A DNA stretch of 64,000 bases, from contig NZ_CP015910.2 in assembly GCF_001676785.2 (NCBI RefSeq), forward strand, positions 930,001-994,000, read 5' to 3'. Origin of the DNA: Brachyspira hyodysenteriae ATCC 27164. Lineage in GTDB: Bacteria; Spirochaetota; Brachyspiria; Brachyspirales; Brachyspiraceae. A program made the translations under genes and the position numbers. Shown piece after piece: positions 40,638 through 43,268 of the stretch (the stretch's first letter is position 1; every line of letters starts with the position of its first letter). The notes beneath the pieces are model-generated. The model had not been told where the DNA came from. It searched no databases and was given only the letters and a program-made list of their open reading frames with translations.

Positions 40638-40706
40638 TTGTTATACTCGCTTTCGTCTATAATAAACTAGTGAGTAAAGTTAATAGCTGGCTTCGGCTTG
40701 CTTTAA
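40638..40706. repeat. Dispersed repeat related to the 69-bp array
   Basis: The sequence shows TTATTGTTATACTCGC, a linker and GGCTTCGGCTTGCTT, aligning in the same orientation with the element near 21447. It lies just before the pyrC stop codon region at the end of the pyrBC operon. Confidence 0.75.
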
Positions 40707-41935
40707 TTACTATAAGTTATTTCTTTTCCTATAAAATTATCAGTGAATTTGCCATTATTGTATACTATATTTCCGCGTACTATAGTAGTTAAAAGTTTTC
40801 CGCCTCTTTTGAAACCTATATAAGGAGACCAACCTGCTTTAGTGATTATATCTTTTTCTTCTATTTCTGAATTATCATTTAAATCTATTATTACTAAATC
40901 GGCATCATAATTTTCTTTTAATAAGCCTTTATCTTTCATAGAGAAAATTTCAGCAGATTTTTCACTCATAATTTTTGTAAGTAATTTTAAATTTATAGTA
41001 TTATCATTAACTTTTTTGAGCATTAACTCAAGCGAATGTTCAGCAGAAGGAATTCCGAAAGTAAGTTTTTCTAATTTCTCACTTATCAAATGAGGGGCAT
41101 GATCCGTTCCTATTGTGTCTATAGTACCGTCTAATATAGCATCCCATAATGCTTTATTGTCTGACTTTTCTCTTAATTCAGGCTTCATTCTAAGGAGCAT
41201 TTTATTTCTATCATTTTTATTAACATCTTCAGTATTCAAAAATAAATGATGAGGAGTAGCTTCTCCGTAAATTATCATTCCAGAGTCTTTTGCTTTTCTT
41301 AATGAATCAATTTCGCTTTCAAGTGATAAATGGCATAAATATAATGGAGTATTAGTATTTTTTGCTATTTTTATTGCCTTATCAACCATTTTATCTTCAG
41401 CATGAACGGTAACTATTTTTGATGCTTCAAATAATTTTTCTAATATTTTATCATCTTCTACAAGCATATTTCCTGTAGAAGCATTAAAGAAAATTTTTGT
41501 TGATGCAGCTTCATTAATAATATTTTTTATATCATTACTATTATCTGCTTTGCTTCCTCCAAAATGAAAGCCGTAATCTACATAAGATTTTCCAATCATC
41601 ATAGATTTTTTAGCAATTAGATTTTCTTTTGAAATAGTATTAGGTATAGTGTTAGGCATATCCAAAAATACTGTAATACCGCCTCTGGCACAAGCTTTAC
41701 TTCCAGAATTAAAATCTTCTTTATGAGTAAGTCCTGGATCTCTCATATGCGTATGAGGATCTATTATGCCTGAAAGCACATAATTGTAATTTGCATCTAT
41801 TATATCATCTGTTTTATTGTCAGATAAATATTTTTCAAAATTATTATCATAATCTATATTTTTTATTTTTTCATTTTCTATTATTATAGATACTATTTTG
41901 TCATTATTTGCAATTTTAGCATTTTTTATTATCAT
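40703..41935 (-). CDS. pyrC: Dihydroorotase
   Basis: Dihydroorotase closes carbamoyl aspartate to dihydroorotate in pyrimidine synthesis. The 410-residue amidohydrolase has 'SGIIDPHTHMRDPGLTHKEDF' with the metal-binding HxH near 61-63, 'LDMPNTIPNT', 'TVHAEDK', 'YLCHLS', 'GEATPHHLFL' and 'GTDHAPHLISEK' with the catalytic Asp. It follows pyrB by 15 bases on the same strand. AGGTAAATT precedes ATG. Length and motifs indicate the class I form. Confidence 0.93.
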   Translation of the reverse strand: MIIKNAKIANNDKIVSIIIENEKIKNIDYDNNFEKYLSDNKTDDIIDANYNYVLSGIIDPHTHMRDPGLTHKEDFNSGSKACARGGITVFLDMPNTIPNTISKENLIAKKSMMIGKSYVDYGFHFGGSKADNSNDIKNIINEAASTKIFFNASTGNMLVEDDKILEKLFEASKIVTVHAEDKMVDKAIKIAKNTNTPLYLCHLSLESEIDSLRKAKDSGMIIYGEATPHHLFLNTEDVNKNDRNKMLLRMKPELREKSDNKALWDAILDGTIDTIGTDHAPHLISEKLEKLTFGIPSAEHSLELMLKKVNDNTINLKLLTKIMSEKSAEIFSMKDKGLLKENYDADLVIIDLNDNSEIEEKDIITKAGWSPYIGFKRGGKLLTTIVRGNIVYNNGKFTDNFIGKEITYSN

Positions 41936-41950
41936 AATTTACCTAATAAT

Positions 41951-43030
41951 TTATTTTCCTATTTCTCTGTTACAGTAATAGCAGAAATCTCCATAACCTT
42001 TTTTTACAACTCTATTTTTTGTCTCTTCAAAATGTGTAACGCATTTATTATTAGGACAAACTACTTCTTTATTTTCAACAACTTCGTAATTCATTTCTTT
42101 TCTTTTTACCTTAGATTTTATAGCATCTGTAGCCAAAGCCATCATAGCCATTCTTGTAGGAACGCCGTTTCTAGCTTGAATAAAATATTTAGCATATTTT
42201 GTATCATCTAAGTCTATATTAATTTCATCAACTCTTGGGAGAGGGTGAAGTATTATCATATCATCTTTACATTTTCCAACAATATTGTCTTTTGATATTC
42301 TGAATGCATGTTTTACTTCTTCATATTCATTGATATCATCAAATCTTTCTCTTTGTACTCTAGTCATATATAGACAGTCTATTTCTTTTAATACTTCTTC
42401 ATAATTACTAAGTTTTTTATATTTTATATTGGCATTATCTAATTCTTTTAATATATAATCAGGTATTTGTATAACATCAGGAGATATAAAATAGAACTGA
42501 CCATTAAACATCATTAAACCATCAACTAAAGAGTGAACTGTTCTTCCGTATCTTGTATCGCCTACAAAAGCAACTTTTTGATTCTCTATAGTTCCTAATT
42601 CTTCTCTTAATGTGTATAAATCCAATAAAGTTTGACTAGGGTGTTCGTTAGCACCGTCTCCGGCATTTATAATAGGACAGTTTGTAACCTCTTCAGCAAA
42701 TTTAGCAGCTCCGTCAATACTATGCCTCATAACTATAATATCTGAATATGCAGAAACCATAATTATAGTATCTCTCAAAGATTCTCCTTTTTTTACAGAG
42801 CTTTGTTCAGGGTTGTCGAATCCTAATTCTTTACATCCCAACCTATAAGCAGCGGATGTGAATGATAATCTTGTCCTTGTAGAAGGTTCGAAGAATATAC
42901 TTGTCATTATCATTCCGTCCATAATCTTTCTTCTTTCTTTACTATCAGCGTTATCCAACTCCTTAGCAACATCTAATACTTCAATAACTTCCTCTTTTGA
43001 TAACTCTTTGATAGATATAAAGTTTCTCAT
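41951..43030 (-). CDS. pyrB: Aspartate carbamoyltransferase, catalytic chain fused to PyrI zinc domain
   Basis: This enzyme makes carbamoyl aspartate from aspartate and carbamoyl phosphate. Residues 1-310 are the catalytic chain: 'SIFFEPSTRTRLSF' (carbamoyl phosphate loop), 'VKKGESLRDTI', 'NAGDGANEHPSQTLLDLYT', 'MTRVQRERF', 'HPLPRVDEI' and 'ARNGVPTRMAMMAL'. The last 35 residues read VVCPNNKCVTHFEE, later FCYYCNRE, giving C-x4-C...C-x2-C of the PyrI zinc domain, attached without the nucleotide-binding allosteric part. Fusions of PyrB with PyrI occur in Thermotoga and some spirochaetes. Start with GGGAGAA before ATG. It is preceded by the attenuator leader described below. Confidence 0.93.
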   Translation of the reverse strand: MRNFISIKELSKEEVIEVLDVAKELDNADSKERRKIMDGMIMTSIFFEPSTRTRLSFTSAAYRLGCKELGFDNPEQSSVKKGESLRDTIIMVSAYSDIIVMRHSIDGAAKFAEEVTNCPIINAGDGANEHPSQTLLDLYTLREELGTIENQKVAFVGDTRYGRTVHSLVDGLMMFNGQFYFISPDVIQIPDYILKELDNANIKYKKLSNYEEVLKEIDCLYMTRVQRERFDDINEYEEVKHAFRISKDNIVGKCKDDMIILHPLPRVDEINIDLDDTKYAKYFIQARNGVPTRMAMMALATDAIKSKVKRKEMNYEVVENKEVVCPNNKCVTHFEETKNRVVKKGYGDFCYYCNREIGK

Positions 43031-43060
43031 TATTTCTCCCTTAAAAAATAGTTGATTGTT

Positions 43061-43210
43061 TTATTGTAATTCAGGATAAAAAAAAGGAATAAAATTGTTA
43101 AAGATAACAACTTTATTCCTTTTTAAAAAATTCCAAATACATAAATTTAAATAAATAGAATAGGTGTGCAAATAAAAAATTATCTTGTATTTAAGAAATA
43201 TGTTTTTCAT
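43061..43210 (-). CDS. Leader peptide ORF of pyrBC (pyrL-like)
   Basis: A 49-codon frame starts with ATG at 43210 behind AGGATAAAAA and ends TAA at 43061, 30 bases before pyrB. The peptide reads MKNIFLKYKIIFYLHTYSIY, then a middle with LNLCIWNFLKRNKVVIF and ends IPFFYPELQ; it is rich in Phe, Tyr and Ile, so the message is U-rich. It spans the terminator hairpin at 43081-43124, as E. coli pyrL spans its attenuator. Translation of the leader would let the ribosome prevent hairpin formation. Too short to be counted as an ordinary gene; function is in regulation. Confidence 0.65.
   Translation of the reverse strand: MKNIFLKYKIIFYLHTYSIYLNLCIWNFLKRNKVVIFNNFIPFFYPELQ
43073..43124 (-). terminator. 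Attenuator hairpin in the pyrBC leader
   Basis: A 20-bp stem, AAAAAGGAATAAAGTTGTTA against TAACAATTTTATTCCTTTTT (one G-U pair), with a TCTT loop, followed on the minus strand by eight U. It ends about 47 bases before the pyrB start, inside the leader ORF. It is oriented to stop transcription of pyrB, not to end another gene, because the next gene upstream is the divergent dxs. In the plus direction it precedes dxs by more than 230 bases. Confidence 0.85.
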
Positions 43211-43240
43211 TTTTTATCCTATTCTTTATAAATTGAAAGG

Positions 43241-43268
43241 ATTGTATCATGTATATTAAAAAAATCAA
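43241..43268 (-). promoter_or_regulatory. pyrBC promoter
   Basis: On the minus strand TTGATT (43268-43263), a 16-base spacer and TACAAT (43246-43241). The predicted transcription start near 43234 lies about 24 bases before the leader ATG at 43210. Confidence 0.55.

Follow-up and report, generated by a model that had tools for sequence, protein, structure and literature searches.

The pyrBC operon of Brachyspira hyodysenteriae ATCC 27164 is probably controlled by a translation-coupled attenuator of the pyrL type, which would be one of two or three such devices serving the pyrimidine pathway in Brachyspira. Ahead of pyrB, a promoter-proximal ORF with its own ribosome-binding site runs into an intrinsic terminator. 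The locus lies in a window of 64,000 nt (contig NZ_CP015910.2, positions 930,001 to 994,000); coordinates without a contig or locus name refer to this window, and all leader features are on its minus strand. A preliminary description of this DNA had already proposed a pyrL-like design before pyrBC, and on the points that can be examined in sequence (ORF, hairpin, distance between ATG and hairpin) the proposal is supported. It even undersold the case: the same architecture is found at carAB and probably at pyrK-pyrD-pyrF/E, and pyrB has an ATTT start like that of E. coli.

The pyrBC leader and known pyrimidine attenuators

The leader begins with a promoter consisting of TTGATT (-35, 43263 to 43268) and TACAAT (-10, 43241 to 43246) at a spacing of 16 nt. 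To follow it in relatives, 26 Brachyspira genomes were searched, which yielded 24 orthologous pyrB loci; the other two genomes contain distant carbamoyltransferase relatives only. All 24 upstream regions agree in their parts and in the order of these. The TTG of the -35 element is invariant, and the -10 element, which reads TATAAT in most relatives, is kept except mainly for its third base. It is followed by C-AATTT, and the AATTT (43230 to 43234) harbours the predicted transcription start; the ATTT is invariant in 24/24 genomes and the flanking bases vary. Taken alone, the promoter pattern is at chance level (8 found, 8.0 expected). The DNA upstream of the promoter is not the usual one in L004, L005, L011, L018 and L020, which instead share a repeat, AATTATAAGGAATACC...CAATATCTATGGCTCTTAAAC, with some variation; in L020 the repeat is adjoined by an ORF resembling an IS transposase.

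The ribosome-binding site AGGATAAAAA (43211 to 43220, GG conserved), whose AGGA is immediately 5' of the ATG at 43210, precedes an ORF of 49 codons plus stop, MKNIFLKYKIIFYLHTYSIYLNLCIWNFLKRNKVVIFNNFIPFFYPELQ (43061 to 43210), which is open in all 24 homologous loci. Within this ORF lies a hairpin of 20 bp with a tetraloop (43081 to 43124; -21.0 kcal/mol), the putative attenuator, and its U8 tract (43078 to 43085) has five of the eight U inside the stem, where they pair with an A run. One U6 run in the ORF (43174 to 43179) is a candidate pause region, and another one directly 5' of the hairpin (43125 to 43130) is a candidate UTP-sensitive pause. After the stop codon, 30 nt (43060 to 43031) remain before pyrB, including its ribosome-binding site AAGGGAGA (43035 to 43042). 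Promoter, ribosome-binding site, ORF, hairpin with U8 tail, U-rich stretch ahead of it and the 30-base distance had all been listed in the preliminary description; each was found at its place, and the distance is exact.

According to family models, pyrB (41951 to 43030) encodes an aspartate carbamoyltransferase (ATCase) with a C-terminal PyrI-like Cys4 zinc module, and the second gene of the operon, pyrC (40703 to 41935), a dihydroorotase. The Cys4 module (41951 to 42133, minus strand) resembles the PyrI zinc domain with a PF02748 match below the cut-off (E 0.0015), and the allosteric domain of PyrI, PF01948, was found in 0/26 Brachyspira genomes. On the other side of the leader, the dxs gene is divergent. 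Therefore, the hairpin cannot terminate a gene lying upstream and is to be seen as a leader attenuator.

The leader also stands out from its background. The 238-nt stretch folds well above its shuffles (z -5.05, 0/200 shuffles), one terminator-like site was found where 0.3 were expected, and 49 open codons have a chance of 0.009 under a first-order Markov model, in agreement with the roughly one percent estimated before. Conservation of the hairpin in Brachyspira, earlier named as a check, was confirmed and includes compensatory changes: when pairs were hand-aligned from the stem base, 309 of 312 cells in 13 pairs were paired, and seven pairs were changed on both sides. RNAalifold, applied to an 11-sequence alignment with some misplaced rows, gave three pairs changed on both sides. 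From the ATG to the hairpin the leader contains 46% U and ranks in the top 4% of gene starts, whose first 91 nt average 34%; this U-richness is partly expected at this AT content, as are the hydrophobic codons. Most relatives have five or more U in a row ahead of the hairpin; the run is interrupted in L017 and L023, and L024 lacks it. A scan of the leader region with Rfam gave no credible match, and a search for the leader DNA elsewhere in its own genome revealed no second leader copy; the other matches were the leader's own inverted repeat, the neighbourhood of a tandem-repeat gene and a small second contig.

As a genomic control, we used 464 kb of this genome, made up of the window and 400 kb of further stretches. 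It contains 218 gene starts with an upstream gap of at least 90 nt, 38 of them with a strong terminator. In 5/218 cases, one of which is pyrB, the terminator is reached by an ORF with 14 codons or more; the other four ORFs are two tandem-repeat runs and two of 14 codons. The layout of an ORF running into a terminator is rare in this genome, and pyrB and carA both have it, pyrK nearly so. Tandem DNA repeats, read as TRQDK... and TTQHN... repeats, were noticed beside terminators in two upstream gaps at about 1107690 and 1349466 of contig C1 (L182-L201).

The UTP-sensing attenuator of pyrBI is the textbook case from enterobacteria. Its counterpart in Brachyspira likewise targets pyrB and has a leader ORF that extends into and beyond an intrinsic terminator, with a distance from ATG to hairpin of 68-100 nt (88 nt in E. 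coli). Both have a U run shortly 5' of the hairpin and AATTT just past the -10 element. In contrast to E. coli, the hairpin in Brachyspira is long and A/U-rich, pyrB is followed by pyrC and not by pyrI, and the carAB and pyrK operons are also equipped with leader terminators. Another E. coli attenuator, that of pyrE, relies on the reading of the upstream ORF rph into the terminator. It is also a case of ribosome-coupled attenuation of a pyrimidine gene, but it uses a whole upstream gene, whereas the leaders in Brachyspira are short and dedicated, and the phosphoribosyltransferase step seems there to reside in a pyrF-E fusion that follows pyrK-pyrD.

The likeness to pyrL does not extend to the peptide. 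With the models PF08052/NF007587 (PyrBI_leader), the pyrB leader ORFs of three Brachyspira species and the carA leader gave no match at E 10, while E. coli PyrL, used as a control, matched at 3e-34 and 3e-35. Common descent with pyrL is thus not supported, and the best reading of the resemblance is that it is convergent, with UTP probably being the sensed signal. An earlier report of such an attenuator in Brachyspira was known neither to the preliminary description nor found by us in the open literature, outside of which most subscription papers lie.

A leader terminator before a pyrimidine operon can also be served by a protein. UMP- or UTP-bound PyrR on the leader RNA would then favour the terminator, as proposed for Thermus, and the leader ORF would be secondary. 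Genome G000 does encode PyrR (L056:352-918; NF003549, 194.6 bits), in sister genera pyrR is located directly 5' of pyrB, and the protein could act via a so far undescribed site. However, the PyrR element RF00515, which was detected in the controls B. subtilis, Thermus and Lactococcus, is present in 0/26 Brachyspira genomes and had no match at E 10 within the window. Furthermore, the pyrB, carA and pyrK leaders have no common motif by eye, and the consensus fold, in which a competing antiterminator was sought, offered nothing convincing, just a weak small stem. Brachyspira thus has the leader terminators and the PyrR protein in common with the PyrR-regulated systems of Bacillus, Thermus and Lactococcus, but not the RNA element, and we regard PyrR-dependent attenuation as unlikely. 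In G000, no uracil phosphoribosyltransferase (PF14681) scored above the cut-off and the best match was PyrR itself (C1:2581396-2581779); uracil salvage may therefore depend on PyrR. In the sister-genus loci L051 and L052, pyrR adjoins a quite different pyrB, with about 36% identity to Brachyspira PyrB at the protein level, and the PyrR proteins are about 70-75% identical.

Leaders of carAB, pyrK and pyrB genes outside Brachyspira

In the genome of the window, carA is preceded by a 45-codon ORF, MIWKKFKLKKTLLKMQFLIILKRLEIDFRLISNLFFILNKNLKKI (approximately C1:647969-647832, minus strand), which spans a hairpin with U8. The carA gene is present in 22/26 Brachyspira genomes; at E 1e-60 none was found in G001, G002, G018 and G020, all of which have pyrB and pyrK and three of which form one clade. 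All 22 loci have a hairpin, with three double changes, and an open leader frame ending inside or past it. The stops per frame amount to 0/87/59, the ATG having been picked as that of the longest open frame, a choice which favours frame 0. The carA leader peptide is unrelated to that of pyrB, and with 34% U overall this leader is not U-rich. Since in G000 the gene upstream of carA shares its strand, carA alone would be a weaker case.

The third operon is pyrK-pyrD-pyrF/E. A terminator precedes its first gene, pyrK, in 19/25 loci, and is absent in the pilosicoli-like clade, in L173 and in L174. These 19 loci each have a short ORF, whose end in 18 of them falls within the hairpin, beyond it or 7-14 nt short of it; in the remaining one the ORF ends 25 nt short of the hairpin. 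A terminator in E. coli can be repressed by a ribosome that stands at a stop codon as far as about 27 nt away (PMC4824070), and thus the short pyrK ORFs could work, too. Their start lies no more than approximately 10 nt from the -10 element, and they are possibly leaderless. The same short distance was observed at L088, L117 and L152-L168, where the leader ORFs are probably leaderless or nearly so.

The wider survey covered other spirochaetes with related PyrB and fusobacterial loci. A leader ORF reaching a terminator before pyrB was found in the spirochaetal loci L086, L088, L117 and L049 (Treponema vincentii) and in L047 of the Fusobacteriales, with leader peptides that look unrelated by eye. 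The terminators at L045 and L091 were assigned to the upstream gene and not counted as pyrB attenuators. The design is thus not a general one: at about 40 other spirochaetal or fusobacterial pyrB loci no such terminator was found by our detector, which depends on a U tract and could overlook terminators of another type. The PyrB protein of Brachyspira shares 61% identity with one from Fusobacteriaceae and about 36% with those of the other genera of its own family; judged from these identities, the gene may have been exchanged.

A leader ORF and a terminator are also what an amino-acid-sensing attenuator of the trp/his type would need, in which starvation for one codon sets the read-through. 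In 17/22 carA loci, the leader ORF moreover contains a small hairpin, CTGC-N7-GCAG (TGTGCA-TGCACA in the variant L145), followed by a U-rich stretch; by analogy with the trp and his leaders, it could act as a pause hairpin. The leaders nevertheless have no run of a single regulatory codon and no conserved antiterminator, and the peptides of pyrB, carA and pyrK are mutually unrelated. Amino-acid sensing is accordingly considered quite improbable.

Coding signal in the leader ORF

Conservation of the ORF in the pyrB 5' regions had also been suggested as a check, and the frame is indeed open up to the hairpin in 24/24 genomes. Between the homologous ATG and the hairpin base there are 0 stops in the leader frame compared to 94 and 51 in the other two, one of which is open in a single genome. 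The per-genome chance of an open frame is 3-12%; these values were not multiplied, because the 24 genomes belong to one genus and are related. The ORF ends inside the hairpin or past the U tract in 23/24 genomes; the exception is L017, in which it extends just to the hairpin base. In a codon-model analysis along the gene tree of pyrB (fixed-omega grid, IQ-TREE), an omega of about 0.3 was preferred over 1, with 2 delta lnL of 12.6 for codons 2-14 in 23 genomes and of 17.7 in the 13 genomes sharing a frame; conserved nucleotide signals could likewise depress omega. For the second half of the ORF alone the coding signal was weak (2 delta lnL 5.4), and for pyrB itself omega was about 0.08. Taken together, the leader ORF appears to be under coding selection in the relatives.

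Could the ORF then encode a functional small hydrophobic protein, with the hairpin as an incidental, constitutive attenuator? The omega value of the N-terminal part and its conserved peptide MKNIFLKxKIIFYL are compatible with such a protein, which could fit the N-terminal half only. However, the ORF varies between 31 and 64 codons and has no family match. Between the L001 and L006 groups the frame shifts and then shifts back, so that the middle of the peptide is altered and the frame is still open; in the L010 group a frameshift is located inside the stem, again with the frame open. The frame in which the stem is read differs between species. These changes suggest that openness of the frame is more strictly conserved than the peptide, and the small-protein explanation seems very doubtful. 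Least probable of all, and hardly to be entertained, is an unregulated partial terminator, or one for antisense transcription, with a chance ORF: such an ORF is conceivable in AT-rich DNA, where the chance for a single one of 49 codons is 1%, but frame and hairpin are conserved in 24 genomes and recur at carA and partly at pyrK.

Proposed mechanism and its meaning for the pyrimidine pathway

In E. coli, low UTP leads to pausing of RNA polymerase in the U-requiring pyrL leader, and the ribosome keeps up (PMC10135430). More generally, a terminator located within 100 bp of the beginning of a coding region functions unless pausing allows the ribosome to catch up (PMC4824070). For Brachyspira we propose that RNA polymerase starts at approximately 43234 and that a ribosome begins translation of the leader ORF. 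When UTP is plentiful, polymerase would move fast through the U-rich leader, the ribosome would lag behind, and the 20-bp hairpin would fold and stop transcription. When UTP is scarce, polymerase would pause in the U runs, and the ribosome would catch up and cover the 5' arm of the hairpin, allowing transcription of pyrBC. Of this scheme, the sequence itself shows a conserved promoter, a frame that looks translated up to the hairpin, a hairpin with paired changes and a terminator serving no upstream gene, and it shows that this layout recurs at carA and, in a less complete form, at pyrK. Efficient termination, control by the ribosome, UTP-sensitive pausing as the signal and slippage at the ATTT are the steps we infer. 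Given that the carA leader is not U-rich and that single lineages are devoid of the pyrB U run, UTP is no more than a likely signal.

The start of transcription could add to this control. In E. coli, UTP-dependent slippage occurs on a short T run where transcription of pyrBI and carAB begins, and A as the first base favours it (PMC6245113). Reiterative transcription of this kind operates at pyrBI, carAB, codBA and upp of E. coli (PMC6245113); Brachyspira pyrB shares the short T run at its predicted start, but such a run is not obvious at Brachyspira carA or pyrK. In E. coli pyrBI, AATTTG follows the -10 element after a spacer of 7 nt, and the corresponding spacer at Brachyspira pyrB is 6 nt. 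By analogy, slippage at the ATTT is a possible second pyrBI-like layer of control.

Somewhat more speculatively, and rather as a proposal than as an expectation, the whole de novo pathway (pyrBC, carAB and pyrK-D-F/E) might form a regulon that works without any regulator binding to DNA or RNA: three leader ORFs, unrelated to each other and each with its own terminator, would independently sense UTP via the speed of polymerase, with slippage added at pyrB. The design would have arisen several times in spirochaetes and once in the Fusobacteriales, parallel to the enterobacteria. The same layout with unrelated peptides, genus-wide and before two or three operons, would demonstrate that nucleotide sensing by a coupled ribosome was reached repeatedly by evolution, and also that such sensing is able to serve an entire pathway whose ATCase has no PyrI allosteric domain. 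It also predicts that transcription and translation are closely coupled in spirochaetes.
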